The translations under genes and the position numbers were made by a program. Positions 15,421 to 63,359 of a stretch of 64,000 nucleotides of DNA are shown one piece after another. Each line of letters opens with the position of its first letter. The stretch's first letter is position 1. Source of the DNA: Phytoseiulus persimilis (lineage: Eukaryota; Arthropoda; Arachnida; Mesostigmata; Phytoseiidae). The stretch spans positions 30,526,723 through 30,590,722 of the forward strand of contig CM075103.1 in assembly GCA_037576195.1 (NCBI GenBank). The letters are read 5' to 3'. The notes beneath the pieces are model-generated. The model had not been told where the DNA came from. It did not search any database and saw only the letters and a program-made list of their open reading frames with translations.

Positions 15421-15914
15421 TTGGATGGAGGACTCGGAACTCACGACTCCAACAGATCAAGGCCACCGACCTAACCGACTTCCCGGGCCTGACGCGTGAG
15501 GATTTACTCCTGTTGACTTCAGGACCGTTCCAACTCAAGCTGGCATGCTCGTACTTGGCGGAACTCCTGACACCCGACAATAATGCCCTACTGAGGTTTG
15601 TCAAAGAAACACCCAATATCGTTCGTCTAGGAAACAGGTCGCGCCATTGTGGACCCAGCAGCAGAAAAAACTACCATGTATTCATCGATTACGAACCAAA
15701 CCTGCATCAACTCGACGGCATTCGGAGATACTGGGGTGACTGTCCTAATGGGGCACGGACAGTGGGCTGCTGTTCGCATGTGGCCGCGTGCATCTACTAC
15801 CTGTCTTTCGCCAGGCATGAGCCGCGAATTCGGCTGCCGGCACCAGAGCTAACGGATCTCTTCATGCCATCTGGAGACGATACAGAGTCAGAAGACGAGG
15901 GAACCAACACTTGA
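15421..15914 (+). pseudogene. Transposase C-terminal fragment of Spy-like element (SWIM-like CxH)
   Basis: The open frame runs from inside the left arm to a TGA at 15914. The informative part reads LTREDLLLLTSGPFQLKLAC, then DCPNGARTVGCCSHVAACIY followed by YLSFARH, and an acidic end. A Cys-rich GARTxGCC-H-A block followed by YL..ARH is characteristic of transposase-linked proteins of the ISL2EU/Spy group as I recall them, and resembles a SWIM zinc-binding motif. The DDE catalytic core is missing, so the element is non-autonomous. The tandem MVRSVPES peptides at its N-terminus are translated minisatellite, not protein sequence. Confidence 0.55.
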
Positions 15915-16066
15915 GGAGCGAGAATAAACGAAACCGCTCGAGACCACTGAACGTGTTCTCTTTTTTTGCTCGAGGTCGATTTCTCCGAGAGCGTCTCGGC
16001 TCATAACATGATTCTTTTCTGCTTTGGGCCTGACACGGTCAGATTATTTTGGAGTTTGTTCGGGAT

Positions 16067-16851
16067 CGACCAATCTCACCATACATTTGCAAGTCTGGAG
16101 GGGTGATTCCGGGATCGATCTGACCATACTTTTCTGACTATGGGGGAGTGATTCCGGGACCGATCTGACCATACTTTTCAAAAGCTGGAAGGTGATTCCG
16201 GGGCCAATCTGACCATACTTTTGGGGTCTGGACAGGTGATTCCGGGATCGATCTGACCAAACTTTTGGGTGTCTGAGCGGCTGATTCCGTGTACTCCACG
16301 GCTCAGAATATGATTTTCCCTGGCTCGGGGCCTTCCACCATCAAATATTCTGGAGTTTGAGCATGAAACTCGATGGATCCAGGGTGACCAACGACAGTTT
16401 TTTAGTTTTTTCACCTTGGTCCCCCAAATATTTTTTTGATCTATCTATCGCATTGTGCTCGCACTGAAGGGGGGCATAATATGACACAAACTAGAAAGTG
16501 GTCAACCTCCAGGAAGTGGGTTAGAAACATTCACTTTGAAGATGGTCATTTTTAAGGTATTAAAATTGATCGTGGAAAAACTCTGACGGACGCATCAGAG
16601 AGCTGGATTCACGAGCTTTCCAAAACCCACTTCATGAGCTCTGAACTCTTTCAGATAACGGAGATATGAGCATTTTAAGTTTCCAAATCTCGCTCGATTT
16701 TCATCGGTCCAGAAGATGTTTCATACTATAAAAAAAAAACAAGGCAGCTAGTAGCCCGCCGACTGGGCAGAAAGTGTTCTCTTGGGATGGGGTATCCACA
16801 ACAATATATCTCATTCGAATCCCTGACCCAAGGCCAAAAGTGCCGAGACCC
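16067..16851 (-). repeat. Right inverted arm of Spy-like element
   Basis: Inverted copy of 14621-~15420, ending at the TTT of the target. Confidence 0.75.
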
Positions 16852-41764: not shown

Positions 41765-41924
41765 CGAATTCTTGGAGCGATTCCGGGACCAATCTGACCT
41801 TCACTTTTCAAGTCTGGAGGGGTGATTCCGGGACCGATCTGACCATTACTCTCCCAGGTCTGAGGGGTGATTTCGGGCCCGATCTGACCATTACTTCTCA
41901 AGTCTGGAGAGGTGATTCCGGGAC
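41765..41924. repeat. Spy-derived ~40-bp minisatellite, block 1
   Basis: About four units of the form TGATTCCGGGACCAATCTGA with CAAGTCTGGAGG spacers, the same motif found in the inner arms of the Spy element at 15.3 and 16.1 kb. Confidence 0.7.
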
Positions 41925-42030
41925 TAGACATCATTTTCCGTAGTACGGCAATAAAGTTCCCGTACCAGCCGGTACAGAAATTAATTTTTCGTACCCTGGA
42001 TCCGAGGATCCTTACTACTTAAGATCGGCT
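41925..42030 (+). repeat. Single terminus of a second hAT family related to the giant element
   Basis: TAGACATCATTTTCCG starts here exactly as at the giant hAT ends (43529). The following subterminal DNA uses GTAC palindromes (GTACCAGCCGGTAC) in place of AGTCCG. No matching opposite end was found. It interrupts the minisatellite. Confidence 0.5.
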
Positions 42031-42059
42031 CCGTCCGTCAGTTCGTCCGAATTCCTCCT

Positions 42060-42460
42060 GGAATACATGGGGGTGATTCCGGCAACAATCTGAGCATACT
42101 TATCTGAGTCTGGAGGAGTGATTCCGGGACCAATTTGAGCATACTTTTCCGAGTCTGGTGGGTTGATTCCAGGACGCGTATGACAATATCTTGCTGAGTC
42201 TGGAGGAGTGATTCCGGCACCAATCTGACCATTACTTTCCAAGTCTGAAGGGGTGATTCCGGGACCAATCTGACCTTCACATTTCAAGTCTGGAGGGGTG
42301 ATTCCGGGGCCGATCTCACCATTACTTTCCAAGTCTGGAGAGTTGCTTCCGGGATCAATCTGACCATTACTTTCCAAGTCCCGAGGAGGGATCCCGGGAC
42401 CAATCTGACCTTCACTTTTCAAGTCTGGAGGTGTGATTCCGGAAGCGATCTGAACGATAC
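42060..42460. repeat. Spy-derived ~40-bp minisatellite, block 2
   Basis: About ten tandem units with GATTCCGGGACCAATCTGA and AAGTCTGGAGG, diverged by a few bases each. The ORF through it is simply translated repeat. Confidence 0.7.
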
Positions 42461-42559
42461 TTCACCTACCATCACTTCATTGTCATTGACCTATGACGAG
42501 ACACCGAGATTCACCACATGAAATTTAACTTGAATTCAAATCTCCCTCGCTCCGGAAAG

Positions 42560-43520: not shown

Positions 43521-43528
43521 ATGGCGGC
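43521..43528 (+). repeat. 8-bp target-site duplication, left (ATGGCGGC)
   Basis: ATGGCGGC directly precedes the TAGACATC end and recurs at 57781-57788. Eight bases is the hAT signature. Confidence 0.95.
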
Positions 43529-43578
43529 TAGACATCATTTTCCGGAGTCCGGAATCCGCCGCGGACCGACCGGTCCGG
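43529..43578 (+). repeat. Left terminal inverted repeat of giant hAT
   Basis: Pairs with 57731-57780 with one mismatch (GGAAT against GGGAT). Further in, CGGACTGGCCAGTCCG palindromes recur every ~30-35 bases up to ~43745. Confidence 0.9.
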
Positions 43579-43599
43579 CATCTGGATTTTCGGACCACC

Positions 43600-44935
43600 T
43601 GATCCGCATCGGACCGGCCAGTCCGATAAATGATTTTCCGGACTGGCTAGTCCGATAAATGATTTTTCGGACTGACCAGTCCGATGAATGATTTTCCGGA
43701 CTGGCCAGTCCGATAAATGATTCTCCGGACTGGCCAGTCCGATAAATCATTTGCCCTGGTCCGATGGTCCGGAGAGTGATTTTCTGTTAGGAGAGACCCT
43801 GCTGAGGGATTTCACACCGATTTAGCCCTGATTCCGCTGATCGGGATATTCTCCACTGAGACATTTAGCACCGCACTGCCGATCGGATGGGGTCAGACTG
43901 CCGAGTCCGGAAAATCATCGGCCCCAGACCGATGATTTATCGGACTACCCAGTCCGATAAATCATTTGCCCTGGTCTGATGGTCCGGAGAGTGATTTTCT
44001 GTTAGGAGAGACCCTGCTGAGGGATTCCACACCGATTTAGCCCTGATTCCGCTGATCGGGGTATTCTCCACTGAGACATTTAGCACCACACTGCCGATCG
44101 GATGGGGTCAGACTGCCGAGTCCGGAAAATCATCGGCCCCAGACGATGATTTATCGGACTACCCAGTCCGATAAATCATTTGCCCTGGTCCGATGGTCCG
44201 GAGAGTGATTTTCCGTTAGGAGAGACCCTGCTGAGGGATTTCACACCGATTCAGCCCTGATTCCGCTGATCGGGATATCCCCCACTGAGACATTTAGCAC
44301 CGCACTGCCGATCGGATGGGGTCAGACTGCCGAGTCCGGAAAATCATCGGCCCCAGACCGATGATATATCGGACTACCCAGTCCGATAAATCATTTGCCC
44401 TGGTCCGATGGTCCGGAGAGTGATTTCCCATTAGGAGAGACCCTGCTGAGGGATTCCACACCGATTCAGCCCTGATTCCGCTGACCGGGATATTCTCCAC
44501 TGAGACATTTAGCACCGCACTGCCGATCGGATGGGGTCAGACTGACGAGTCCGGAAAATCATCGGCCCCAGACCGATGATTCATCGGACTACCCAGTCCG
44601 ATAAATCATTTGCCCTGGTCCGATGGTCCGGAGAGTGATTTCCTGTTAGGAGAGACCCTGCTGAGGGATTTCACACCGATTTAGCCCTGATTCCGCTGAT
44701 CGGGGTATTCTCTACTGAGACATTTAGCACCACACTGCCGATCGGATGGGGTCAGACTGCCGAGTCCGGAAAATCATCGGCCCCAGACTGATGATTTATC
44801 GGACTACCCAGTCCGATAAATCATTTGCCCTGGTCCGATGGTCCGGAGAGTGATTTCCTGTTAGGAGAGACCCTGCTGAGGGATTTCACACCGATTCAGC
44901 CCTGATTCCGCTGATCGGGATATCCCCCACACTGT
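43600..44935 (-). repeat. Left satellite arm, ~215-bp monomer, about 5 units
   Basis: Spacing between successive ACTGAGACATTTAGCACC motifs is 215, 214, 215 and 215 bases (43856, 44071, 44285, 44500, 44715). Orientation is opposite to the right arm. It ends abruptly in unique DNA at ~44935. The outer part is made of shorter ~30-bp units. Confidence 0.9.
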
Positions 44936-45354
44936 GACAACCACTCCAGACTACCGAGTCTCATACCGATCGGATCAAGTGTAGCGAAAACGTGACCCGA
45001 GACGTCTTCCAGAATCTCGCGGCGACAGAATTGTAAACAGGTATCTTGCCGGATTCCGTTCCCACTTCGAGGGAGGTGTGATACACACTGACTGCAGCGA
45101 CTGTTTTCGAATCTGAGTTATAAATTCGATCGGAACGGTGTCTCCGAGCACGATTGGCTCGGAGAAGTTGTCGCAGAAATTCGGCGCCGTGGGAAAAGAT
45201 CTCCAAGAGTACGATCTGTGGAGAGACGTCGCTCCTGCCGTGGAGAATGAGTCGCGCGATGAGACTGCTATACGAATCAGTTTGAGAGAATCGCGCGCTG
45301 CGAACGGACCTCCAAGTTATTTGCATTCCCTTGTATTGCGTGTTCGTGATCGAA

Positions 45355-47860
45355 ATGAGTAATAGGAGTGAGGACACTCAGTCGTTCCTGATGTCTTCTG
45401 AGGCGTCCACCGCTAGCAGAGGTCGCCCGACCAAACGAAAAGGTATTGACGCTTTTCCTGACTGAGACGTATGAAATATCATTTGATGAGCCAGTGTAGC
45501 TCGCCCAGTTCTCGAGGAATGCACGCCGATTGTACCCTTCCCGCAATCAAATGAGATTGTTCTGCAGATCCAGTCTACGATAAGTTCAATCCCATCATTC
45601 TGAACGAATTGTACGAGTGCTTGTCTTGTGCAAAACGCATAAAAAACCTCAAAACAGGAGCAAGAAAGGGCTCACTTCGCACGTCATCTGGCACGAGAAG
45701 CAGGGTGATCTGAAGAAGGAGGAAGAAAACCAGGGCGTGGATCGTGGCCTCCCTGATGACGGTTCTGAATGTTCCCTGCAGAGCATTCGGGTCACCCGTA
45801 ATGAAGGCTCTCTTCGCCTGTGCGAGACTGTTGCCCATGAACGAGCACATTGCTCGCCACCTCAGTGACTCTGAGTTCCTGTACGTAGGCTTTACCCTGA
45901 TTTTCGCAGAAGACGACGAGATGTGTGAATGAGAACTTGACGCTCCCAAGTCAGAGTAGGGCGACGGGATCGCGAGTGGTTTCGGATGATCTGTGGCTTG
46001 AATCCTGTACGTTGCAGGAGAGCTGAAGGTCTGATCATGGCCGACATTTCGAAACTCCGCGAGGAGGGTGCAATTTTCACCCTGACGGCGGACGAATGGT
46101 CCTGGCAAAGGAAACGTTTCCTAGGTAAGCGTCTCCAGCGCGATGCCGGAATCGACTCGAGAGTACATAGAAGATTGTCGCTCATACAGCAGGCTTTCCC
46201 AGGCGTCACTCTTCATTGTTCCGCCGCCATGCCCAGCATCGGATCGAAATCCATCGAACTCCTGTCGCGGTTCAGAGAACGTGCGACTGGGGAGCATCTG
46301 CACGAGGTTCTCCTCCAGTCTCTCTACAGCTTCGGTTGGGCGCGGGAAGACATCCGAGGCCTGACATCAGACGGTGCATCTGTGATGCGCAAGCTGGGTC
46401 GCCTGCTCGTTGACGGTGCCGCCCCGAAACCGTTTTTACACCACCAAACGTGCTTCGCGCATGCCCTGCATCTGGCAGTTCTGGACACTTTCAAGAGCGA
46501 TGTTATAATTGAGGATCTGGAACTCGAGGACGATGACCTCGGTTCAGAGCTCTGGCGCCTGGCTGGCATCACGAGTGAGAACCACGAAGAAGAAGGTTGG
46601 CCCTCGTTTCATCGATTTCCACACCATTATTCCCTCGTTTTACGCGGCCCTCCGACAATTGAGAACGGAATGATTCCAGTCAATGTGTGGAGCTGTAAGC
46701 GTTATTCAATTTTCTCGTAACAGATCTCTCTGCAGAAGAGTCAGCGGATGAGGAGCCCCCGCGATATCACGGGTCAGTGGGAGTGCTGGGGAACAAAGTG
46801 CGTGATGTATGCCGCGTTTTCCATCGGAGTCCAGTTCTCAACGACATCATGCTGAGCTACTCCGAGAACAACGTCAAAAGTACCAAATTGGTGCTCGACG
46901 TACCAACCCGGTGGAACAGTACCTTGAGAATGTTGAGGACCTTCATGCAACACGAGACCACTCTGCGCAGATATTTCGAAGCCGAGTACCCGCGAGCAGG
47001 CTTCCCTCTGAACGTGGCCGAGATGGCTGCGATGAAAGAGGTGATCGCCGGTCTAACTCACGTGGAAAAGGCGGTGCAGCAGCGCTTCTCGCTCGAGGCG
47101 GTATCGTTGACGTCGGCCGACCTGAGTCTCCAGGTGAGCTTCCAAGAAGCTCTGCTATAGTTTCAGCATCTGTGTTACGAGATGCCGCCGTGTGGGTGAG
47201 ACATCAACTCATTCCATGTTCCAGGTGATGCTTCGAAAACTCTCGCAAGACTCCTCGAGCTTCTCTCCGGTGCTCCGGACAAAAATGTTACATCCGTATT
47301 CTACAAAGGCGGACGGTAGCATCGAAGCTCGCGAGTTCGTCTTAAGAGTCGAAGAGAATACACCGCTTGATGGATATCTAGAGGAGGTCCGTCAGAAGCT
47401 CCTCGAGGAAGTTAGACATTCTATCCTCAGGACATTCCCTGATATCTCGGATCTGATCTCTGAGATAGCCAAGTTCCGAGAGCTGGAAGGAAACCCACCC
47501 GAGAACAGACCTCTCGATGCAGCGCTCGGAGAGATGGACGAGCTTGTCCAGTTCATGAATGCAACGGAAGCTAGTCGCGTGATGCAAGGACATCCGAAGT
47601 TGATGGAGTGTCTCTGTGAGAATGGCATGGAATCTCTCGCACAGACGTTAGCCTCGATGCTCCGAACTCTGCAGGCAACCAGCGTACCAGCGGAGCGTGC
47701 ATTCAGTAAGGCGTGTCATGCTCGTCGTTATTGTCAAGAGCGGCAGGACGACGAACGATTCACGAACTTCCTCTTCTATAAAAATTTTCTGAGGATGAAT
47801 ATAAACCGGGGGAACCGTTCAATAGTTTGGAGACAGAGGATGAAAATCGAATTGGAATAA
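45355..47860 (+). CDS. hAT transposase of the giant element, multi-exon
   Basis: Exon 1 (ATG 45355) encodes RGRPTKRK, an AT-hook, and meets a donor at 45443. Acceptor at 45567 leads to ELYECLSCAKRIKNLKTG and, one frame over, LTSHVIWHEKQ: together a BED/C2H2-like finger with an apparent frameshift. Core: REEGAIFTLTADEWSWQRKR ends at donor 46125; a 78-bp intron rejoins it to RFL/GVTLHCSAAMPSI, the canonical hAT DDE region. GLTSDGASVMRKLGR and QTCFAHALHLAVLD follow. A ~128-bp interval (46596-46723) and a 91-bp intron (47134-47224) restore frame into LVLDVPTRWNSTLRML and QVMLRKLSQD. The end has QATSVPAERAFSKACHARR, the dimerisation domain. Exons between 45700 and 46020 are uncertain. Splice sites are inferred. 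Confidence 0.85.
46125..46202 (+). other. Predicted 78-bp intron in hAT transposase
   Basis: GTAAGC...TTTCCCAG. Its length is a multiple of three, so the unspliced frame stays open. Removal joins KRFL directly to GVTLHC as in other hAT transposases. Confidence 0.7.
47134..47224 (+). other. Predicted 91-bp intron in hAT transposase
   Basis: CAG|GTGAGC...TTCCAG|GTG; removal bypasses a TAG and joins DLSLQ to VMLRK in phase 0. Confidence 0.7.
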
Positions 47861-48179
47861 ATTGATATCGTTACAGACTCAAAGTCGTCCCGTGTATCCT
47901 TCTCTCTTTCCTCCAGGACTCCGCGTGTTTTCCCCCGGAAATCTCGCTTATACGTGATCTCCAGCGTTCGCTATTTCCCACTCGATCGATTCTTCCTCCA
48001 GTCGAATCCCCACGAACCTTAATCGAAGTAGAAAAGGCACAATCGAAATCCTCATTCATCGATCTTGGAAGCAAATCCAAACCGATGAAGAATACTCAGG
48101 AGTTATTGATTCTCCTCCCTTACACCGCTCAGAGTTGTGGGTATAACCGAAATACGACGGGGGGTCGCTAGAAAGTGGT

Positions 48180-51100
48180 TGATTGTCTCAGTGGAGAATA
48201 TCCCGATCAGCAGAATCAGGGCTAAATCGGTGTGAAATCCCTCAGCAGGGTCTCTCCTAACAGAAAATCACTCTCCGGACCATCGGACCAGGGCAAATGA
48301 TTTATCGGACTGGGTAGTCCGATAAATCATCAGTCTGGGGCCGATGATTTTTTCCGGACTCGGCAGTCTGACCCCATCCGATCGGCAGTACGGTGCTAAA
48401 TCTCAGTGGAGAATGTCCGATCAGCGGAATCAGGGCTAAATCGGTGTGAAATCCCTCAGCAGGGTCTCTCCTAACAGAAAATCACTCTCCGGACCATCGG
48501 ACCAGGGCAAATGATTTATCGGACTGGGGTAGTCCGATAAATCATCAGTCTGGGGCCGATGATTTTCCGGACTCGGCAGTCTGACCCCATCCGATCGGCA
48601 GTACGGTGCTAAATGTCTCAGTGGAGAATGTCCCGATCAGCGGAATCAGGGCTAAATCGGTGTGAAATCCCTCAGCAGGGTCTCTCCTAACAGAAAATCA
48701 CTCTCCGGACCATCGGACCAGGGAAAATGATTTTCCGGACTCGGCAGTCTGACCCCATCCGATCGGCAGTACGGTGCTAAATGTCTCAGTGGAGAATATC
48801 CCGATCAGCGGAATCAGGGCTAAATCGGTGTGAAATCCCTCAGCAGGGTCTCTCCTAACAGAAAATCACTCTCCGGACCATCAGACCAGGGCAAATGATT
48901 TATCGGACTGGGTAGTCCGATAAATCATCAGTCTGGGGCCGATGATTTTCCGGACTCGGCAGTCTGACCCCATCCGATCGGCAGTACGGTGCTAAATGTC
49001 TCAGTGGAGAATGTCCCGATCAGCGGAATCGGGGCTAAATCGGTGTGAAATCCCTCAGCAGGGTCTCTCCTAACAGAAAATCACTCTCCGGACCATCGGA
49101 CCAGGGCAAATGATTTATCGGACTGGGTAGTCCGATAAATCATCAGTCTGGGGCCGATGATTTTCCGGACTCGGCAGTCTGACCCCATCCGATCGGCAGT
49201 ACGGTGCTAAATGTCTCAGTGGAGAATGTCCCGATCAGCGGAATCAGGGCTAAATCGGTGTGAAATCCCTCAGCAGGGTCTCTCCTAACAGAAAATCACT
49301 CTCCGGACCATCGGACCAGGGCAAATGATTTATCGGACTGGGTAGTCCGATAAATCATCGGTCTGGGGCCGATGATTTTCCGGACTCGGCAGTCTGGTCC
49401 TATCCGATCGGCAGTGCGGTGCTAAATGTCTCAGTGGAGAATACCCCGATCAGCGGAATCAGGGCTAAATCGGTGTGGAATCCCTCAGCAGGGTCTCTCC
49501 TAACAGAAAATCACTCTCCGGACCATCAGACCAGGGCAAATGATTTATCGGACTGGGTAGTCCGATAAATCATCGGTCTGGGGCCGATGATTTTCCGGAC
49601 TCGGCAGTCTGACCCCATCCGATCGGCAGTGTGGTGCTAAATGTCTCAGTGGAGAATGTCCCGATCAGCGGAATCAGGGCTAAATCGGTGTGAAATCCCT
49701 CAGCAGGGTCTCCTCTCTCCTAACAGAAAATCACTCTCCGGACCATCAGACCAGGGCAAATGATTTATCGGACTGGGTAGTCCGATAAATCATCGGTCTG
49801 GGGCCGATGATTTTCCGGACTCGGCAGTCTGACCCCATCCGATCGGCAGTACGGTGCTAAATGTCTCAGTGGAGAATGTCCCGATCAGCGGAATCAGGGC
49901 TAAATCGGTGTGAAATCCCTCAGCAGGGTCTCTCCTAACAGAAAATCACTCTCCGGACCATCGGACCAGGGCAAATGATTTATCGGACTGGGTAGTCCGA
50001 TAAATCATCAGTCTGGGGCCGATGATTTTCCGGACTCGGCAGTCTGACCCCATCCGATCGGCAGTACGGTGCTAAATGTCTCAGTGGAGAATGTCCCGAT
50101 CAGCGGAATCAGGGCTAAATCGGTGTGAAATCCCTCAGCAGGGTCTCTCCTAACAGAAAATCACTCTCCGGACCATCGGACCAGGGAAAATGATTTTCCG
50201 GACTCGGCAGTCTGACCCCATCCGATCGGCAGTACGGTGCTAAATGTCTCAGTGGAGAATATCCCGATCAGCGGAATCAGGGCTAAATCGGTGTGAAATC
50301 CCTCAGCAGGGTCTCTCCTAACAGAAAATCACTCTCCGGACCATCAGACCAGGGCAAATGATTTATCGGACTGGGTAGTCCGATAAATCATCAGTCTGGG
50401 GCCGATGATTTTCCGGACTCGGCAGTCTGACCCCATCCGATCGGCAGTACGGTGCTAAATGTCTCAGTGGAGAATGTCCCGATCAGCGGAATCGGGGCTA
50501 AATCGGTGTGAAATCCCTCAGCAGGGTCTCTCCTAACAGAAAATCACTCTCGGGACCATCGGACCAGGGCAAATGATTTATCGGACTGGGTAGTCCGATA
50601 AATCATCAGTCTGGGGCCGATGATTTTCCGGACTCGGCAGTCTGACCCCATCCGATCGGCAGTACGGTGCTAAATGTCTCAGTGGAGAATGTCCCGATCA
50701 GCGGAATCAGGGGCTAAATCGGTGTGAAATCCCTCAGCAGGGTCTCTCCTAACAGAAAATCACTCTCCGGACCATCGGACCAGGGAAAATGATTTTCCGG
50801 ACTGGGTAGTCCGATAAATCATCGGTCTGGGGCCGATGATTTTCCGGACTCGGCAGTCTGGTCCTATCCGATCGGCAGTGCGGTGCTAAATGTCTCAGTG
50901 GAGAATACCCCGATCAGCGGAATCAGGGCTAAATCGGTGTGAAATCCCTCAGCAGGGTCTCTCCTAACAGAAAATCACTCTCCGGACCATCGGACCAGGG
51001 CAAATGATTTATCGGACTGGGTAGTCCGATAAATCATCGGTCTGGGGCCGATGATTTTCCGGACTCGGCAGTCTGACCCCATCCGATCGGCAGTACGGTG

Positions 51101-54100
51101 CTAAATGTCTCAGTGGAGAATGTCCCGATCAGCGGAATCAGGGCTAAATCGGTGTGAAATCCCTCAGCAGGGTCTCTCCTAACAGAAAATCACTCTCCGG
51201 ACCATCGGACCAGGGAAAATGATTTTCCGGACTGGGTAGTCCGATAAATCATCGGTCTGGGGCCGATGATTTTCCGGACTCGGCAGTCTGGCCCCATCCG
51301 ATCGGCAGTGTGGTGCTAAATGTCTCAGTGGAGAATACCCCGATCAGCGGAATCAGGGCTAAATCGGTGTGGAATCCCTCAGCAGGGTCTCTCCTAACAG
51401 AAAATCACTCTCCGGACCATCAGACCAGGGCAAATGATTTATCGGACTGGGTAGTCCGATAAATCATCGGTCTGGGGCCGATGATTTTCCGGACTCGGCA
51501 GTCTGGCCCCATCCGATCGGCAGTGTGGTGCTAAATGTCTCAGTGGAGAATATCCCGATCAGCGGAATCAGGGCTAAATCGGTGTGAAATCCCTCAGCAG
51601 GGTCTCTCCTAACAGAAAATCACTCTCCGGACCATCGGACCAGGGAAAATGATTTTCCGGACTCGGCAGTCTGACCTCATCCGATCGGCAGTACGGTGCT
51701 AAATGTCTCAGTGGAGAATATCCCGATCAGCGGAATCAGGGCTAAATCGGTGTGAAATCCCTCAGCAGGGTCTCTCTCCTAACAGAAAATCACTCTCCGG
51801 ACCATCAGACCAGGGCAAATGATTTATCGGACTGGGTAGTCCGATAAATCATCGGTCTGGGGCCGATGATTTTCCGGACTCGGCAGTCTGACCCCATCCG
51901 ATCGGCAGTACGGTGCTAAATGTCTCAGTGGAGAATATCCCGATCAGCGGAATCAGGGCTAAATCGGTGTGGAATCCCTCAGCAGGGTCTCTCCTAACAG
52001 AAAATCACTCTCCGGACCATCAGACCAGGGCAAATGATTTATCGGACTGGGTAGTCCGATAAATCATCAGTCTGGGGCCGATGATTTTCCGGACTCGGCA
52101 GTCTGACCCCATCCGATCGGCAGTACGGTGCTAAATGTCTCAGTGGAGAATGTCCCGATCAGCGGAATCAGGGCTAAATCGGTGTGAAATCCCTCAGCAG
52201 GGTCTCTCCTAACAGAAAATCACTCTCCGGACCATCGGACCAGGGCAAATGATTTATCGGACTGGGTAGTCCGATAAATCATCAGTCTGGGGCCGATGAT
52301 TTTCCGGACTCGGCAGTCTGGCCCCATCCGATCGGCAGTGTGGTGCTAAATGTCTCAGTGGAGAATATCCCGATCAGCGGAATCAGGGCTAAATCGGTGT
52401 GGAATCCCTCAGCAGGGTCTCTCCTAACAGAAAATCACTCTCCGGACCATCAGACCAGGGCAAATGATTTATCGGACTGGGTAGTCCGATAAATCATCGG
52501 TCTGGGGCCGATGATTTTCCGGACTCGGCAGTCTGGCCCCATCCGATCGGCAGTGTGGTGCTAAATGTCTCAGTGGAGAATATCCCGATCAGCGGAATCA
52601 GGGCTAAATCGGTGTGGAATCCCTCAGCAGGGTCTCTCCTAACAGAAAATCACTCTCCGGACCATCAGACCAGGGCAAATGATTTATCGGACTGGGTAGT
52701 CCGATAAATCATCGGTCTGGGGCCGATGATTTTCCGGACTCGGCAGTCTGACCCCATCCGATCGGCAGTGTGTGGTGCTAAATGTCTCAGTGGAGAATAT
52801 CCCGATCAGCGGAATCAGGGCTAAATCGGTGTGGAATCCCTCAGCAGGGTCTCTCCTAACAGAAAATCACTCTCCGGACCATCAGACCAGGGCAAATGAT
52901 TTATCGGACAGGGTAGTCCGATAAATCATCGGTCTGGGGCCGATGATTTTCCGGACTCGGCAGTCTGGCCCCATCCGATCGGCAGTGTGGTGCTAAATGT
53001 CTCAGTGGAGAATATCCCGATCAGCGGAATCAGGGCTAAATCGGTGTGGAATCCCTCAGCAGGGTCTCTCCTAACAGAAAATCACTCTCCGGACCATCAG
53101 ACCAGGGCAAATGATTTTCCGGACTGGGTAGTCCGATAAATCATCGGTCTGGGGCCGATGATTTTCCCGGACTCGGCAGTCTGGCCCCATCCGATCGGCA
53201 GTGTGGTGCTAAATGTCTCAGTGGAGAATATCCCGATCAGCGGAATCAGGGCTAAATCGGTGTGGAATCCCTCAGCAGGGTCTCTCCTAACAGAAAATCA
53301 CTCTCCGGACCATCAGACCAGGGCAAATGATTTATCGGACTGGGTAGTCCGATAAATCATCGGTCTGGGGCCGATGATTTTCCGGACTCGGCAGTCTGAC
53401 CCCATCCGATCGGCAGTACGGTGCTAAATGTCTCAGTGGAGAATGTCCCGATCAGCGGAATCAGGGCTAAATCGGTGTGAAATCCCTCAGCAGGGTCTCT
53501 CCTAACAGAAAATCACTCTCCGGACCATCGGACCAGGGCAAATGATTTATCGGACTGGGTAGTCCGATAAATCATCAGTCTGGGGCCGATGATTTTCCGG
53601 ACTCGGCAGTCTGACCCCATCCGATCGGCAGTACGGTGCTAAATGTCTCAGTGGAGAATGTCCCGATCAGCGGAATCAGGGCTAAATCGGTGTGAAATCC
53701 CTCAGCAGGGTCTCTCCTAACAGAAAATCACTCTCCGGACCATCAGACCAGGGCAAATGATTTATCGGACTGGGTAGTCCGATAAATCATCGGTCTGGGG
53801 CCGATGATTTTCCGGACTCGGCAGTCTGACCCCATCCGATCGGCAGTGTGGTGCTAAATGTCTCAGTGGAGAATGTCCCGATCAGCGGAATCAGGGCTAA
53901 ATCGGTGTGAAATCCCTCAGCAGGGTCTCTCCTAACAGAAAATCACTCTCCGGACCATCAGACCAGGGCAAATGATTTATCGGACTGGGTAGTCCGATAA
54001 ATCATCGGTCTGGGGCCGATGATTTTCCGGACTCGGCAGTCTGGTCCTATCCGATCGGCAGTGCGGTGCTAAATGTCTCAGTGGAGAATACCCCGATCAG

Positions 54101-57100
54101 CGGAATCAGGGCTAAATCGGTGTGGAATCCCTCAGCAGGGTCTCTCCTAACAGAAAATCACTCTCCGGACCATCAGACCAGGGCAAATGATTTATCGGAC
54201 TGGGTAGTCCGATAAATCATCGGTCTGTGGCCGATGATTTTCCGGACTCGGCAGTCTGACCCCATCCGATCGGCAGTGTGGTGCTAAATGTCTCAGTGGA
54301 GAAAGTCCCGATCAGCGGAATCAGGGCTTAATCGGTGTGGAATCCCTCAGCAGGGTCTCTCCTAACAGAAAATCACTCTCCGGACCATCGGACCAGGGCA
54401 AATGATTTATCGGACTGGGTAGTCCGATAGATCATCGGTCTGGGGCCGATGATTTCCCGGACTCGGCAGTCTGACCCCATCCGATCGGCAGTGTGGTGCT
54501 AAATGTCTCAGTGGAGAAAGTCCCGATCAGCGGAATCAGGGCTTAATCGGTGTGGAATCCTCAGCAGGGTCTCTCCTAACAGAAAATCACTCTCCAGACC
54601 ATCGGACCAGGGCAAATGATTTTCGGACTGGGTAGTCCGATAAATCATCGGTCTGGGGCCGATGATTTTCGGACTCGGCAGTCTGGTCCCTATCCGATCG
54701 GCAGTGCGGTGCTAAATGTCTCAGTGGAGAATACCCCGATCAGCGGAATCAGGGCTAAATCGGTGTGGAATCCCTCAGCAGGGTCTCTCCTAACAGAAAA
54801 TCACTCTCCGGACCATCAGACCAGGGCAAATGATTTATCGGACTGGGTAGTCCGATAAATCATCGGTCTGGGGCCGATGATTTTCCGGACTCGGCAGTCT
54901 GACCCCATCCGATCGGCAGTGCGGTGCTAAATGTCTCAGTGGAGAATACCCCGATCAGCGGAATCAGGGCTAAATCGGTGTGGAATCCCTCAGCAGGGTC
55001 TCTCCTAACAGAAAATCACTCTCCGGACCATCAGACCAGGGCAAATGATTTATCGGACTGGGTAGTCCGATAAATCATCGGTCTGGGGCCGATGATTTTC
55101 CGGACTCGGCAGTCTGACCCCATCCGATCGGCAGTGCGGTGCTAAATGTCTCAGTGGAGAATACCCCGATCAGCGGAATCAGGGCTAAATCGGTGTGGAA
55201 TCCCTCAGCAGGGTCTCTCCTAACAGAAAATCACTCTCCCAGACCATCGGACCAGGGCAAATGATTTATCGGACTGGGTAGCCCGATAAATCATCGGTCT
55301 GGGGCCGATGATTTTCCGGACTCGGCAGTCTGACCCCATCCGATCGGCAGTGCGGTGCTAAATGTCTCAGTGGAGAATACCCCGATCAGCGGAATCAGGG
55401 CTAAATCGGTGTGGAATCCCTCAGCAGGGTCTCTCCTAACAGAAAATCACTCTCCGGACCATCAGACCAGGGCAAATGATTTATCGGACAGGGTAGTCCG
55501 ATAAATCATCGGTCTGGGGCGATGATTTTCCGGACTCGGCAGTCTGACCCCATCCGATCGGCAGTGCGGTGCTAAATGTCTCAGTGGAGAATACCCCGAT
55601 CAGCGGAATCAGGGCTAAATCGGTGTGGAATCCCTCAGCAGGGTCTCTCCTAACAGAAAATCACTCTCCGGACCATCAGACCAGGGCAAATGATTTATCG
55701 GACAGGGTAGTCCGATAAATCATCGGTCTGGGGCCGATGATTTTCCGGACTCGGCAGTCTGACCCCATCCGATCGGCAGTGCGGTGCTAAATGTCTCAGT
55801 GGAGAATACCCCGATCAGCGGAATCAGGGCTAAATCGGTGTGGAATCCCTCAGCAGGGTCTCTCCTAACAGAAAATCACTCTCCGGACCATCAGACCAGG
55901 GCAAATGATTTATCGGACAGGGTAGTCCGATAAATCATCGGTCTGGGGCCGATGATTTTCCGGACTCGGCAGTCTGACCCCATCCGATCGGCAGTGCGGT
56001 GCTAAATGTCCTCAGTGGAGATATCCCCGATCAGCGGAATCAGGGCTAAATCGGTGTGGAATCCCTCAGCAGGGTCTCTCCTAACAGAAATCACTCTCCG
56101 GACCATCAGACCAGGGCAAATGATTTATCGGACTGGGTAGTCCGATAAATCATCGGTCTGGGGCCGATGATTTTCCGGACTCGGCAGTCTGACCCCATCC
56201 GATCGGCAGTGCGGTGCTAAATGTCTCAGTGGAGAATATCCCGATCAGCGGAATCAGGGCTAAATCGGTGTGGAATCCCTCAGCAGGGTCTCTCCTAACA
56301 GAAAATCACTCTCCGGACCATCAGACCAGGGCAAATGATTTATCGGACTGGGTAGTCCGATAAATCATCGGTCTGGGGCCGATGATTTTCCGGACTCGGC
56401 AGTCTGACCCCATCCGATCGGCAGTGCGGTGCTAAATGTCTCAGTGGAGAATATCCCGATCAGCGGAAATCAGGGCTAAATCGGTGTGGAATCCCTCAGC
56501 AGGGTCTCTCCTAACAGAAAATCACTCTCCGGACCATCAGACCAGGGCAAATGATTTATCGGACTGGGTAGTCCGATAAATCATCGGTCTGGGGCCGATG
56601 ATTTTCCGGACTCGGCAGTCTGACCCCATCCGATCGGCAGTGCGGTGCTAAATGTCTCAGTGGAGAATATCCCGATCAGCGGAATCAGGGCTAAATCGGT
56701 GTGGAATCCCTCAGCAGGGTCTCTCCTAACAGAAAATCACTCTCCGGACCATCAGACCAGGGCAAATGATTTATCGGACTGGGTAGTCCGATAAATCATC
56801 GGTCTGGGGCCGATGATTTTCCGGACTCGGCAGTCTGACCCCATCCGATCGGCAGTGCGGTGCTAAATGTCTCAGTGGAGAATACCCCGATCAGCGGAAT
56901 CAGGGCTAAATCGGTGTGGAATCCCTCAGCAGGGTCTCTCCTAACAGAAAATCACTCTCCGGACCATCAGACCAGGGCAAATGATTTATCGGACTGGGTA
57001 GTCCGATAAATCATCGGTCTGGGGCCGATGATTTTCCGGACTCGGCAGTCTGGTACCCTATCCGATCGGCAGTGCGGTGCTAAATGTCTCAGTGGAGAAT

Positions 57101-57640
57101 ACCCCGATCAGCGGAATCAGGGCTAAATCGGTGTGGAATCCCTCAGCAGGGTCTCTCCTAACAGAAAATCACTCTCCGGACCATCAGACCAGGGCAAATG
57201 ATTTATCGGACTGGGTAGTCCGATAAATCATCGGTCTGGGGCCGATGATTTTCCGGACTCGGCAGTCTGGTCCTATCCGATCGGCAGTGTGGTGCTAAAT
57301 GTCTCAGTGGAGAATACCCCGATCAGCGGAATCAGGGCTAAATCGGTGTGGAATCCCTCAGCAGGGTCTCTCCTACAGAAAATCACTCTCCAGACCATCG
57401 GACCAGGGCAAATGATTTATCGGACTGGGTAGTCCGATAAATCATCGGTCTGGGGCCGATGATTTTCCGGACATCGGCAGTCTGGTCCTATCCGATCGGC
57501 AGTGCGGTGCTAAATGTCTCAGTGGAGAATACCCCGATCAGCGGAATCAGGGCTAAATCGGTGTGAAATCCCTCAGCAGGGTCTCTCCTAACAGAAAATC
57601 ACTCTCCGGACCATCGGACCAGGGCAAATGATTTATCGGA
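48180..57640 (+). repeat. Right satellite arm, ~215-bp monomer, about 44 units
   Basis: Successive CTCAGTGGAGAAT motifs begin 215 bases apart (48187, 48402, 48617, then 48785 after a 168-bp short unit, 49000, 49215...). Several short units (~168 bp) lack the hairpin. Unit variants shift along the array: GCAGTACGGTGC dominates early, GCAGTGTGGTGC in the middle, GCAGTGCGGTGC late. ORFs inside (for example 53158-53355, 54616-54858) are translated repeat, not genes. Confidence 0.95.
48297..48330 (+). repeat. Hairpin within the satellite monomer (example)
   Basis: Arm ATGATTTATCGGACT, spacer GGGT, then the exact reverse complement of the arm. It recurs in nearly every full-length unit of both arms. 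The CGGACT/AGTCCG core is the same as in the CGGACTGGCCAGTCCG palindromes near the transposon tips. Confidence 0.85.
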
Positions 57641-57730
57641 CTGGCTAGTCCGGAAAATGATTTATCGGACTGGCCGGTCCGATGCGGACCAGTCAGTCCG
57701 ACGCGGACCAGCCGTCCGAAAATTCCAATT

Positions 57731-57780
57731 CCGGACCGGTCGGTCCGCGGCGGATCCCGGACTCCGGAAAATGATGTCTA
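57731..57780 (-). repeat. Right terminal inverted repeat of giant hAT
   Basis: Reverse complement of 43529-43578 with one mismatch. Confidence 0.9.
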
Positions 57781-57788
57781 ATGGCGGC
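57781..57788 (+). repeat. 8-bp target-site duplication, right (ATGGCGGC)
   Basis: Identical to 43521-43528. Confidence 0.95.
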
Positions 57789-57811
57789 AACGACAAGAGC
57801 CGAAACCAGCC

Positions 57812-58556
57812 GTGAGTGAAATTTCCCGATCGTTTTGCGGGTACCATATCTCTCAAGTCATGAAAGCTCTCGGTTCGAGTTTGATGCAGAGTCGAGCGCG
57901 AATATCCTCCCAGACAAAGCCGGATGTTTCAAATCTGCTTTCCTTACAGACCATCGAAACGGATTCCTCAGGTAGCCTCTCGAGAAAAAAACGATCGACA
58001 AAGTCGCCAGCGGAAACCCGTAAAGGGACGTTCCAAATCGTCGCGTTGGGTCACGGGAATCAATTAGTGGCCTTAGAAACGGGCTGGCTGGCGGATCAGA
58101 GGAAGCTCGCTGATGACCTCCAGGAATACGCGGACTTCATCGCCTGCGGCGTGGACGAGATGGCGCCAGAGGGTCGTCTACGCCTGCAAAGACTACGTCA
58201 CCCCAACCTGGCAGCGGTGTCGCAAGATAAGCGAGACCGGAGGCGTCGTCTCCGTGGAACTGATTGACCAGGGTCGGCAGCGAACGGTCCGGAAAGACGA
58301 GGTGCTAGAGCTCTCGTCTCTTTACAAGTGCTGGACCGTCAGAGCTGCCGATCTGGATATCGTTGGCTTCGAGGTCGCCTCGACTTCTATGGGGAGCTTG
58401 GAGGCTCATGTTTCTCGAGAAGACATACGACCTCTCCTATGAATGTCAGCGGAGGGGCCTCTGATGAGGGACCGCCTCAGAGTTTCAGAAATGAAACTTA
58501 ACGGCAAGTCCGTTCTTGACGATCTGGTGGCGGTGGGAATCCTGCTCAGGAAATAG
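57812..58556 (+). pseudogene. Tudor-domain gene fragment (frameshift and stop)
   Basis: After ~115 residues without recognised domain (KGTFQIVALGHGNQLVALET, DDLQEYADFIACGVDEMAPE) a -1 shift near 58166 leads to RVVYACKDYVTPTWQRCRKI then VVSVELIDQGRQRTV. This has the Tudor pattern: entry of the ligand-binding barrel, W-x-R-C, then the V-x-LIDxG strand. After RPLL and one TGA the same frame continues as RLRVSEMKLNGKSVLDDLVA and VGILLRK, like the C-terminal part of an extended Tudor module. Tudor proteins bind methylarginine and often act in the piRNA pathway. The giant hAT lies just upstream, in a frame that stays open across the target site. AATAAA is at 58601. Whether a longer functional gene exists elsewhere is unknown. 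Confidence 0.45.
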
Positions 58557-58600
58557 GTTCAGGATTCATATTTGTAGCGTTATAGCGGTGATAGCTTCAG

Positions 58601-58606
58601 AATAAA
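58601..58606 (+). terminator. Polyadenylation signal after Tudor fragment
   Basis: AATAAA 45 bases downstream of the last in-frame stop. Confidence 0.4.
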
Positions 58607-58981
58607 TTTCGGTGACGTCAGAAACATCGATGATTTCTTTGTTCCAACATCTGGAAGTGTGCCCGCTGAGCGAATCGGCAGCCGCAAACCGGACATATCG
58701 GCCTCGGGAGTTGCCTCCTTCAACTCAAGAATGGTTCTGATCCCTGCTTGGCCAAGAGGCTTGTGGGGACACTGAATCGATCAGTTCTGAGCCTATTGGA
58801 GAGTTGATGCTACCCAGGCTTCGAGTCCTGAGAAGAAAACGAGTCTCCAGATGTGCCGCCAGATTGTTGGATTGTCTACGTGGTAATGTCTCACGTTGAA
58901 ACTCTGGAACTTATCCGAAAATCGCAAACCGCGGTAAGGAATTCTGCCGCATACATTAGCTACAGCTGAAAGAAAATATTC

Positions 58982-59319
58982 ATGGAAATCGATGCATCGG
59001 GCGAGGAGGAATCACCCAAACAAGAATCCGATCTAGCCTCCGATGTTTCGAGCCCGGATTTCAACAACCCCGACCGATGGGTTTCACGTAGTTTTCAGAC
59101 GATTCCTCGACACTGGAACGAGGCAGAGAGTTGATTTTTCTTTCCCAGAAAGATCTATCCAGCCGAGGAGCGCTACTCATGGAGATCGACGAACGCTTAC
59201 CCGTCGCAACAGTTCCTCAAGAATGAGTTACTCTCCAAGGTGCAGGGGCTCCCTCCTTTCAGCGCACTGCAGAGAAGCTTAGTTTCGTATGCTCGGCTCT
59301 TCGCTCACCTGCTCAGCTA
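58982..59319 (+). other. Possible coding exons, unidentified
   Basis: An ATG frame reads MEIDASGEEESPKQESDLAS and on to FNNPDRW before a stop. A good acceptor (TTTCTTTCCCAG) at ~59150 opens a second frame, KIYPAEERYSWRSTNAYPSQ and QFLKNELLSKVQGLPPFSAL. The composition is protein-like but no domain is recognised, and the linking donor is uncertain. Confidence 0.2.
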
Positions 59320-61040
59320 GCTTCGGGCACTTGAGATCATTGAATCATGTGTTCGAAGACTTTCGATGAGCGAATAATCAGTATGAAGGAGGAGTTTATC
59401 CCTCAAAATTTGGGGAGGAATGATTCGGATTATACTCATGTTCACAATGAATGTAGCCTGACTTTCGACCTTTCTCATGAAGAAATCCCAAGGGTCTGTC
59501 ACGAACCCCTTCTTCCTCATTCTTTCTCGAGCAGTAATCAAGCTCCGATCAAGCGGAGTCGGACTTCAGTGAGGAGCTCTTCGTTTCAAACATTTTTTTC
59601 TGTTATTTGTTCCGAGTTTCAGCAGAATTACTACCATGCATGAGATGGCACGCATGCAGACTGTCGTTAGAGAAGGTGGGATCTCGGGTTCGAATGTTTG
59701 AATGTGATTGGTCCCCGTGTCCCGAATACGGGGATCGATTTGAGCAGAATATTCTCTCCAGCGCGGAGTGATCGAACCCGAGTTTTGGGAATCAAAAAAA
59801 TATATCCTTCTCCAACCCTTTCTTCAAAAGCAACGGCCGCAGTTCAAGAAGGTCAGTCACTGGGGCTCCTATCTCTCCATCAAACTCGCGTTCACGGCCG
59901 TCGACTTCCGTCTCATAACTGTGAGAGACGCAGTCGCCCTCTTGGACGAAATCGATCTCTCGTATGAATTTTTTTCTCCGAATCTGCTGGCATGGGGCGC
60001 CCTTGGCTCCGGCGCAGGCGAATGAGTCCTGTGAAATATCTTCGCCTGCCGTCAAACACGATCGTCTGCGGCTTTGCTTTCAGCATTTGACTTCGGAGAC
60101 TTCAGATGATCCACGAACTCTCGACTCAAGAGTGGGTCATTATGAACAGGGTCGTTTCGCAAGCCCACCGTGGAGACTTTAAAGACATGAATAAACGCCA
60201 CGAAGAGAGCCGGCTTCCGTCGACTTCCTTGAATGGCAGAAATTTTGACGAGACATGATCCTATCCTCGAAGAAAAAAATCGGAGTTCCCGAGCCCCCCC
60301 TTGCGATTTTTTGGGAAAATTCAGAAATCGCGGAGTTTCCGACACTAATATGGAAAATGCTCACGGGGTTCGTTCTTGTTCGCTATGTATCGCCTGTTTC
60401 GTCATGAAGACAGGCACTCATCGGTGTCAACAGAACAGGCAACTTCGATTTCTTTCTGGCCTTAGCTGCATTGGCGCCCATGGGAGATCGACTTCACCCG
60501 CGAAGGATGCGGTTTCAATAAGCTTATCTCCAATCCTTGATTCCATTAGTTAACTGGATCTAGATTCTCATATCGGGATTCGGTCAACACTCGATGGGTA
60601 AGCGTCCGACGATTTTCACTATGAAGAGCTCGGCAGCCGTATGGATCGTCCTCGAGAGAACCCTCCACAAGAGCTTTCTCTCGAGGGGGCTGACGGATCG
60701 AGCGAAGCATTCCAGCAAGGGGTTCGAGAAAACCGAGTTGTTTTTTTCGTAACCTCAATTTTGATAGCCCTCGATGAGAAGCCCCTCTTAGCTTCTGCCG
60801 GTCTACGCCGCTGACGCAGGTGAAGAGGGTGTAACCACAACTAGGATTCCTGCGAAAGAATTCGGAATTCTTTGGAGTAGTGCAGAGCCGACATCTCTCT
60901 CCCCTAGAACTCGGGCTCAGATTCACCATAAATGAGGAAGCTCCGGTGCGTTGGAATCACTCTCGTGCTTTTTCTGTACGATTCAGAACTTTACGATCCG
61001 GTTCTCACTTTTCTGACTCAGTCAGAAGATAAGCGTAGAG
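59320..61040. other. No recognised gene
   Basis: Short frames only. The plus frame 59768-60025 (QKQRPQFKKVSHWGSYLSIK, DAVALLDEIDLSYEF) and minus frame 60546-60929 have mixed composition; neither shows a known motif. Confidence 0.3.
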
Positions 61041-61581
61041 ATGGATTGTCGCAAGCAAACCCTGTTCCATCAACTCATTCGCAGCATGGGCAACAATGTA
61101 AGTAGAGTTCTACCTGTGAAGAGATCCGAAGCTCTAGAACATACCATCCCTCGTCAGACACTGCGTTTAAGATAGAAGAAGATTGATTCGAACCGTCTTT
61201 TTCCAGGGCGACGTCCTGAACTTCCTGCACCCGGTCAAACCGTGTGGATTTGGCTCGAGGTCCTCTTCGGCCCCCTTGGCCAAAGTTCGGTACAATGTGG
61301 AAGGCCGTTGCTCTCACACTGTTCCTTATCCACGTGCCAAACTCGATGGATTCAGTACCCTCTGTAGTGCTTCATGCGGGAATGTCCCACTGGCGTACAG
61401 AAGCAAGAGGAGAAGTGTGACGGGGAACCGAAGAAGCGATAGTGAAACCCTCCAAAGAACCCGACAGACGCTGTCTCATACGGTGGGACCATTTCTCGCC
61501 GACACTAAAAAGTACAACATCGGAATTGCTGCATTCAACGTCGACCCGGAAGACAACACCAAGTTGCACTTCGGAACTTGA
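61041..61581 (+). CDS. Hypothetical two-exon gene
   Basis: ATG 61041 opens MDCRKQTLFHQLIRSMGNN, which meets a consensus donor GTAAGTAG at 61098. A pyrimidine-rich acceptor CTTTTTCCAG at 61206 rejoins phase 0 to GDVLNFLHPVKPCGFGSRSS and on to a TGA at 61581 (KKYNIGIAAFNVDPEDNTKL near the end). The splice signals are good, but the protein is unfamiliar. An alternative frame in exon 2 starts MWKAVALTLFLIHVPNS, which resembles a secretory signal peptide and then VPSVVLHAGM; which frame is real is unclear. Confidence 0.3.
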
Positions 61582-61916
61582 TTTACCTGACAAACTACTC
61601 GAAGGATGAGTCTCTTTTCTGTCGAGCAAATGTTATGCTCATCTTCTCTTGCAACAGTAGTTATCATCGTCCGCTTGCGCTTTGTGTGTTGCTTGCGCAA
61701 GAAGCAACCTAGCCGACAGGACAGTGGACATGCCTATGGAAGCCTGGGAAGGTCCAAGTGATGACGAAGCAGAACAATAGAAGTAGAGGGCTGCGCTTGA
61801 AAAAGATGTGCTCATTGACATGAACGTAGACATCATGATGGTATGCGAAACGCGTCTTATGAATGACGAGAAAGCACCACTCATTGAGGGATACAAACAT
61901 AATATCCAGCAACCGG

Positions 61917-62198
61917 CGAAGCTCGGCTCGTTGGCCGTGGGGCATAAACCAACGCCTTAGGTGCCTACGCTAAGCTAGCAATCGCGGGTTCGATCCCCGG
62001 CCGCAACAAAAATTTCTCATGTGGTAAAAAGAGGATTTAATTTGTATCAGAATTAAATCTGAACCATCTTAAGACCTAAGCCCACCGCCCGCAGTGGGAT
62101 TTGCGAGGCGATAGGGAGTGTTACTGAAGCAATACCGAAAGGTGATCCCAGGACACTTCTGAGGGCTGGCTGAGAGGTTCTGCCGGAAAACAAAGACA
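61917..62198 (+). mobile_element. tRNA-derived SINE, plus orientation
   Basis: The head contains an A-box-like TGGCCGTGGGGC and a B box GGGTTCGATCCCC. The body ends AGGTTCTGCCGGAAAACAAAGACA. A 12-bp duplication, AGCAACCGGCGA, flanks it inside the LINE endonuclease frame. Confidence 0.8.
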
Positions 62199-62321
62199 AA
62201 AAGCAACCGGCGAGGCCCGACTGGGAAAAACTCGAATGGTGGCGTAGCTATCCTATACAGGGAAAACTATGTCGAAGACTGGAACCACAAAGGCAATGAC
62301 TTCATTCCCAAGCAACGTGGA

Positions 62322-62604
62322 TTTTTTTTTTTTTTTGTTTTCCGGCTGAACCTCTCAGCCAGCCCTCAGAAGTGTCCCGGAATCACCTTTTCGGTATTGC
62401 TTCAGTGACACTCCCTATCGCCTCGCAAATCCCATTGCGGGCGGTGGGCTTGGGTCTTAAGATGGTTCAGATTAATTCTGATATAAATTAAATCCTCTTT
62501 TTAACCACATAAGAAATTTGTTGTCCCGGCCGGGGATCGAACCCGCGATTGCTAGCTTAGCGTGGCACCCAAGGCGTTGGTTTATGCCACACGGCCAACG
62601 AGCC
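62322..62604 (-). mobile_element. tRNA-derived SINE, minus orientation
   Basis: Reverse-complement copy of the SINE at 61917. It has a poly-A tail (T run on the plus strand at 62323-62337) and B box GGTTCGATCCCC read on the minus strand. The 14-bp AAGCAACGTGGATT lies at both sides. Confidence 0.85.
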
Positions 62605-63359
62605 GGTAAGCAACGTGGATTGGCAGACATATATGAAACATAGAACAGTAAGGGAAAACAAAACCCTCACCAGATCCATGAGCAACTCATCAAGCAAAAG
62701 TGCTCGCCGCTAGATAAGGATTATCATAGGTGGTGACGCCAATGCGCAGATCTCCTGCCTCGATGGAAAATCACACAAAAGAGGACAGATCCCCGAGGAG
62801 TTTTCCATTGAGAACGGACTCACTATACTAAACATGACTGAGCGATGCGAAGGCAAATTCACGAGGGGAGTCAGCGATAGACTACTTTCTTGTGAACGGA
62901 GCGGCGCTGAGTCAGATAGACTCCATGACCATCGACGAAGACAGGATCATAGCAAGTTCGCGAGGAAGTGCAGAGAGAAATAAAGCAACGTGACCACCAA
63001 ATATGCCTGGATATCCTCCGAAATGGTCTCCTGATTCCAGACGACGGCTTGACAGCTCACCTAACTGGCGTAGGAATTGAGTTGCTGGAAGCAAGCAAGA
63101 CCACCGACCACAAAGACCCGTGGTGAGGAAGCAGAGATCCCACAGGAATCGTTACAGACCCAGAAGAGGTCAAGAGAGCGATGAGTACCATCCAAGACCG
63201 CACAGGATATGGCCTCGATGGAATCCCTGCGAAAGTCTTGAAAAACCTGCAGGATGAAGGTGCAAGGCAAATCACTGAACAGAATGTTTTCCGGAGCCGA
63301 AGACATACCAGAGGACTGGAAACAGGGAAGAGTGTCCCTCATAGAAATAAAGCCAGGGG

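Follow-up and report, generated by a model that had tools for sequence, protein, structure and literature searches.

We analysed a window of 64,000 nucleotides from the mite Phytoseiulus persimilis (assembly GCA_037576195.1, contig CM075103.1; G000:C3:30526723-30590722 in our numbering), whose 181 Mb genome is assembled in 127 contigs, four of them large (54.7, 52.0, 38.9 and 28.1 Mb). A search of the assembly for COX1 gave no match. At positions 43529-57780 of this window lies a hAT transposon of 14,252 bp, in which a transposase gene is enclosed by two inverted arms of ~215-bp tandem units, one arm having grown to 45 units. Loci bearing L numbers are other stretches fetched from the same genome. 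The features of the element, in window coordinates, are:

43521..43528, no strand: left target-site duplication ATGGCGGC, 8/8 with 57781-57788 and present singly in 6/6 fetched paralogous empty sites
43529..43578, plus strand: left terminal inverted repeat, 50 bp, 49/50 the same as the right end
43610..43752, plus strand: outer subterminal 29-bp palindromic tandem repeats, 4.9 copies (Tandem Repeats Finder, TRF)
43717..44930, minus strand: left arm, a 140-bp end unit and 5 full ~215-bp units (unit tiling; TRF period 215)
44931..48190, plus strand: core separating both arms, 94-97% identical in DNA to L052, L056 and L057
45357..46017, plus strand: 5′ region of the transposase gene, including a CxxC...HxxxH segment of BED type (stop-to-stop frames; start codon and exon borders set by eye)
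46019..47860, plus strand: 3′ region of the hAT transposase gene, predicted to have 4 exons that splice into an open frame of 514 aa (Hermes matches)
48191..57661, plus strand: right arm, 45 tandem units, of which 41 are full length, 3 have a 47-bp deletion and one is a 140-bp end unit (tiling; TRF)
48191..51112, plus strand: two rounds of a 7-unit block (units R02-R04 identical to R09-R11; lag-7 identity)
57626..57681, plus strand: 29-bp subterminal repeat of the right side, 1.9 copies (TRF)
57731..57780, minus strand: right terminal inverted repeat, 50 bp (end comparison)
57781..57788, no strand: right target-site duplication ATGGCGGC, 8/8 with the left

The ends of the element are firm, as an earlier note on this DNA had claimed. 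The tip TAGACATCATTTTCC is exact at both of them (43529 on the plus strand, 57766-57780 on the minus strand), the two ends match at 49 of their first 50 bases and 63 of their first 70, and the same octamer flanks the element on each side. The 8-bp duplication and the homologous transposase place the element in the hAT superfamily. Terminal repeats of hAT elements start near YARNG, and the focal tip, TAGAC, agrees with this consensus at 4 of 5 positions. For an empty-site search, the two flanks were joined with one copy of the octamer and compared against the whole genome. Two of the 32 matches are the element’s own flanks and the other 30 all span the junction, 27 of them over bases 24-200 at 92-97% identity, two over the same span at 81% and one over bases 83-200 at 97%. 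Most lie at the extreme end of contig C1 (54.59-54.74 Mb), at C1:47.16-47.23 Mb and on C121, and all six that were fetched hold a single ATGGCGGC and no insert. The right flank of the window also resembles the C1 end in blocks, at 93-97% identity, up to about 63.0 kb. Since empty sites span the junction and the flank is itself shared, the element landed in a single copy of a multi-copy host segment, by a cut-and-paste event that duplicated 8 bp. Read by eye, the octamer supplies the start codon for a short gene within the segment (ATG GCG GCA ACG ACA AGA GCC, later GTGAGT). The segment that holds the right flank (window 57781-63018; L082) has its copies grouped at the C1 terminus and on C121, and one of those on C1 contains a 222-aa frame whose sole match is to a weak SH3-like model (Myosin_N, E 0.0064, below the cut-off).

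The spliced hAT transposase gene that had been proposed is present in the core, but its 5′ BED segment does not lie in the reading frame. Once three predicted introns are taken out, the 3′ part is a single open frame of 514 aa. Its sole PDB matches are four sequences: two bear the name Hermes transposase, and two, which we take to be Hermes as well, the name transposase. The Hermes chains were matched at a best E of 1.5e-6 with phmmer and of 8e-10 with a profile of five relatives. In a 5-row alignment the acidic residues of TADEW and TSDGASVM are invariant, as is an RW pair, and near the C-terminus PF05699 (the C-terminal dimerisation region) is matched at E 0.038 and 0.093, below the curated cut-off. 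The nearest known protein, from Galendromus occidentalis, is 39% identical over 99%, and its record also has a reverse-transcriptase match. The 5′ exon of the focal copy contains one stop codon (45711-45713), and the two halves of its BED-like finger, CxxC and HxxxH (assigned by eye), stand in different frames. Length differences lie near 45646 and 45726 relative to L052 and L056, which are without them, and a stretch near 47281-47334 is offset against L052, L056 and L057. Pfam gives no zf-BED match in the focal copy and one at E 8.8e-9 in the relative P0003. None of the four core-bearing copies checked has an undamaged gene: the focal one carries the stop at 45711-45713, L056 has 27 in-frame stops after a frame change, L052 has one stop in each of two parts and a deletion that takes out coding sequence, and L057 has lost the 5′ part. 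The family’s present mobility is therefore unproven. Elsewhere in the window, positions 36648-37280 hold a 210-aa frame that contains ATGGASNAL and CYAHGLDLVVKK and that looks by eye like another hAT-like transposase fragment.

Unit tiling and TRF, which reports a 215-bp period on both sides, confirm that the arms are inverted arrays of an expanded subterminal repeat. The first estimate, about 5 units on one side and about 44 in inverse orientation on the other, was close to what tiling gives: 5 full units and 140 bp on the left (5.65 units) and 45 on the right, the last of them partial. The arms are complementary to each other, with up to 787 nt paired at 96%, and long inverted arms made of internal direct tandem repeats are a foldback-type build. 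The units share sequence with the tips of the element. The motif ATTTTCCGGA, 10 bases at positions 9-18 of the terminal repeat, is present in 43 of the 46 full-length units; the left arm contains 8 copies of it and the right arm 45, with none in the core or the 49.7 kb of flanks.

The right arm carries a record of its own growth. Its units have a mean identity of 97.17% (minimum 92.75%), the corresponding means being 95.40% within the left arm and 95.96% between the arms. Identity is highest between neighbours (97.95 at lag 1) and is raised again between units seven apart (97.79 at lag 7), vs a permuted mean of 97.17, and none of 5000 permutations was as high for either lag. The 47-bp deletion lies at one and the same place in the three units that have it, R03, R10 and R17, which are spaced seven apart, R17 falling in the next block. 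This pattern of lags and blocks is that of block duplication, probably by unequal exchange or slippage. One left unit, Lf2, is identical to R32 and R33, which may be a sign of exchange between the arms or of a recent common origin. Near-identical tandem arrays are hard to assemble, and part of the array’s length could in principle be an assembly artefact. We regard this as decidedly unlikely, since most right-arm units are distinguishable at a mean identity of 97.2%, local variants such as the 47-bp deletion recur at ordered spacings, and both ends, the duplication and the empty sites are mutually consistent.

Other copies with the same tip and with 8-bp duplications were looked for, as the earlier note had proposed, and were found. 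Exact 17-base tips number 34 in the genome (14 + 20; two are focal), vs 0 for a reversed control. Our family sample consists of the 14 two-ended elements among the fetched stretches, the focal copy counted and one-tip loci left out. For L063 the inner 535-bp element (7/8 duplication) was taken and the outer ends (21252709, 21261271; duplication 1/8) were left out, and weak tip matches inside L069 and L071 were not used. The target-site duplication is 8/8 in ten of these 14 copies, 7/8 in three and 0/8 in one (L065); in a chance control of 182 swapped flank pairs of the same elements none reached 7/8, the best being 6/8.

These two-ended copies range from 470 bp to 14.25 kb and from 0.40 to 49.59 unit-equivalents in total, so arm length is variable, and short arms are the rule among the copies examined, the long array being confined to one. 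In the 13 non-focal two-ended copies, the unit-equivalents number 0-1.83 for one orientation and 0.40-1.97 for the opposite one. When core-bearing copies are counted as well, the non-focal copies examined have 0-2.65 per arm, and the idea that the array is the normal form of this transposon has to be given up. In the non-focal copies examined, an arm is made up of a terminal repeat and short palindromic repeats of 29 bp, together with no more than 2.65 of the 215-bp units. Among the copies whose core is 94.4-96.7% identical to the focal one, L052 (3,766 bp, 8/8 duplication) has about 1.8-2.0 units per arm and lacks 516 bp of the core, L056 has 1.65 and 2.62 units and has lost its right tip, and L057 has 2.65 units in its sole remaining arm, the other end being lost. 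L011 and L073 contain core pieces at 88% and 84%. At two further loci, L061 (C4:1807905) and L062 (C4:1822593), family tips face outward from each other and the 12 flanking bases are reverse complements, an arrangement that suggests an inverted duplication of about 15 kb including element ends.

Five of the copies, of 470-663 bp and consisting of hardly more than such short arms, have exact duplications together with only 3-5 ATTTTCCGGA motifs and at most 1.24 unit-equivalents in either orientation, and long arms are therefore unneeded for transposition. These small copies bear on the proposal that the long arms are functional, with dozens of binding sites that gather transposase and are favoured since they raise mobility. 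The 53 copies of ATTTTCCGGA in the focal element would fit such a role, as would two published systems (cited here and below from excerpts of the papers): THAP binding sites of the transposase have been identified in the tandem repeats of the terminal inverted repeats (TIRs) of the transposon Galileo (PMC3688188), and Hermes needs about 220 bp per end, with scattered putative BED sites (PMC10368747). Beside the five small copies, the proposal has against it that long arms occur in one copy only among those examined, that the focal transposase gene is out of frame, and that Hermes with the tested left-end putative BED sites mutated kept ~70% activity (PMC10368747), and we hold it to be quite unlikely. 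The excess of motifs, 53 vs 0-9 in the 13 other two-ended copies, could alternatively make the expanded copy a trans-acting sink that titrates the family’s transposase. This is very unlikely, since with the gene damaged in every core-bearing copy checked there is perhaps nothing left to titrate.

The 215-bp unit itself is concentrated in the focal element. A 20-base unit probe with up to 2 mismatches gave 142 matches vs 2 for a reversed control, and 100 of the 142 are listed; among the matches listed, 48 of the 72 exact ones lie in the focal element and the longest non-focal run is 3 units, inside L057. A search with the whole unit showed no longer run elsewhere among the matches listed of 172 (40 of 97 candidates scored). 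Neither search shows, among the matches listed, a free array of the unit independent of the transposon, and the route to satellite DNA claimed earlier is thus unsupported as a completed one; an array of diverged units may lie elsewhere, as the matches listed are part of those found. What is present is the satellite trait, a 9.5-kb tandem array with a mean unit identity of 97.2%, and this array is best seen as an incipient satellite still inside its own transposon. The opposite course would be that the hAT element captured an existing satellite or inserted beside one; some miniature inverted-repeat transposable elements (MITEs) and Helitrons are proposed to have captured tandem repeats that were already present (PMC12628747). 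For the focal copy such a course is extremely improbable: the unit shares the terminal motif, 12 of the 13 other two-ended copies have it at more than one unit-equivalent in total and in both orientations (the exception being L068, with 0.40), and no free array was seen among the matches listed.

Taken together, it is likely that block duplication in one arm of one hAT copy expanded a subterminal repeat that contains the terminal motif ATTTTCCGGA and is probably a region of transposase binding. Because nearly every unit repeats these 10 bases of the terminal repeat, the unit would first have arisen as a cluster of putative transposase-binding sites, and by analogy with the BED sites of Hermes and the THAP sites of Galileo we infer that the 215-bp repeat began in this way. 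Once duplicated, it would have expanded through recombination without being needed for movement. Growth would have taken place by unequal exchange or replication slippage inside each arm, because 7-unit blocks are duplicated and similarity is greatest among neighbours; the inverted arms may also have exchanged sequence once. A more active part for the enzyme, in which transposase nicking or binding at internal motifs drives unequal repair and arm expansion and the satellite origin is transposase-driven, not passive, seems unlikely to us.

Several observations weigh against expansion of a motif-bearing repeat as just described. L068, with its 0.40 unit-equivalents, has no exact ATTTTCCGGA and yet an 8/8 duplication, and the exact motif is therefore not essential to the family. 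A single founder for the array was examined with a unit tree that covers 58 of 63 units, the 5 below 165 bp being excluded, and gained no support, neither arm forming a single clade. The right-arm units need 6 label changes in this tree, which is weakly resolved (8 of 48 inner branches starred), and with the focal units not forming one clade, a single recent burst from one founder is unsupported. The mean identity of the right-arm units, 97.17%, is close to the core identity with L052, 96.71%, so the expansion need not be very recent. The array length is as assembled.

Other hAT-like genes of the genome have different ends. A search for tips near these genes, allowing no more than 3 mismatches over the first 15 bases, gave TAGACATGAATTTCCG, TAGACCCCATTTTCCG, TAGACTCCATTTCCCG and TAGACATCATTTTCCG, followed by different palindromes, and also clear non-tips. 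Short palindromic repeats with periods of 19-30 bp (in L019 also 56 bp) adjoin the tips of L019, L022 and L028, and L016 has a 31-bp palindromic repeat where no tip was found; none of these four loci (3.3-3.6 kb each) contains a 215-bp-type unit. Counts of ATT(T)(T)CCG in nine hAT-like loci vs 200 simple shuffles were mixed, exceeding all shuffles in L019, L022 and L024, tying the maximum in L018 and L028 and falling below it in the other four, and are not used as evidence. The window has a third exact TAGACATCATTTTCC tip at 41925 (41925-42072), followed by GTACGG-type palindromes and lying between two blocks of a 45-bp repeat; it seems to be an end belonging to a related hAT family, the one with a tip in L028.

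The 45-bp repeat belongs to another inverted-arm structure of the window (14637-16846), in which a 647-nt centre is enclosed by paired arms, 675 nt long at 99% complementarity and 117 nt long at 96%, with about five tandem 45-bp repeats per side. Within it is a 256-aa frame (15144-15914), the part 15444-15914 of which has no Pfam match at E 0.01. The repeat is found again at window 41779-42462 and is very common genome-wide: a search gave 2204 first-look candidates, of which 40 were scored, with at least 212 matches. It forms dense multi-kb runs, for example at C2:51644356-51654213, C2:29133542-29138655 and C1:28919175-28931296, with further arrays inside L063 and L065. In this case a satellite may actually have spread from inverted-arm elements.

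The earlier statement that no hAT of this form had been described was too strong. The focal copy is a foldback-like hAT element with one ballooned arm, a kind already known from the cod element gadMor-hAT-1784 (PMC12368964), with similar growth in Tetris and Galileo. gadMor-hAT-1784, a hAT MITE of Atlantic cod, has in its consensus ~600-bp TIRs built of 167-169-bp tandem repeats, accumulates at inversion breakpoints with mean lengths of 1,334-5,838 bp, and in one subfamily is kept as tandem repeats of a single arm (PMC12368964). It thus shares with our element hAT membership, long inverted arms of tandem repeats and kilobase-scale arrays. Its consensus is described in the excerpt as lacking an open reading frame (PMC12368964), whereas the focal element has a damaged but recognisable transposase gene, an exact duplication, empty-site paralogues and its array inside one delimited element.

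Tetris (TIR-220) of Drosophila virilis, an element of unassigned superfamily, likewise varies in the number of ~220-bp tandem repeats in its TIRs, shows their expansion inside element copies, has arrays of up to 66 repeats, and has sequence common to the outer TIR and the repeat, but it is apparently non-autonomous, and its transposase source was not found according to the excerpt (PMC4079207). The same excerpt reports 39 contigs with TIR-220 only, yet no TIR-220-alone array in fiber fluorescence in situ hybridization (PMC4079207); unlike those contigs, the focal unit has no free array among the matches listed. In Galileo, tandem repeats of ~140-210 bp are expanded inside the TIRs and unequally between the arms, and in D. 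willistoni the expansion is reported only for the longest copy, which lacks a transposase segment; Galileo differs in belonging to the P superfamily, not hAT, and in having, in the excerpts, at most 9 repeats per region (PMC4168063, PMC3573991). Hermes shares the hAT transposase, and its N-terminal BED domain reads short subterminal repeats, but these are scattered (AAGT/AAGC), with no tandem 215-bp units in the description excerpted (PMC10368747). In the literature covered, with most subscription papers outside it, we found no hAT described that combines a recognisable transposase gene, an arm of 45 units with higher-order blocks and an exact target duplication with the presence, in the same genome, of empty paralogous sites and relatives with short arms. 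Searches specific to mites gave no useful precedent among the papers listed.

Many satellites are considered in reviews to have been born from transposons (PMC9659126, PMC12628747). With the present copy, arm growth of the foldback-like kind described in Galileo and Tetris is extended to a hAT element whose transposase gene can still be recognised. It also calls for caution, as a single 9.5-kb array belonging to one transposon copy could pass as a satellite in repeat finders. The connection of satellites to transposons is often deduced from decayed remnants. In P. persimilis one assembly shows short arms, an expanded arm, empty targets and related hAT families together, and the order of events can therefore be read.

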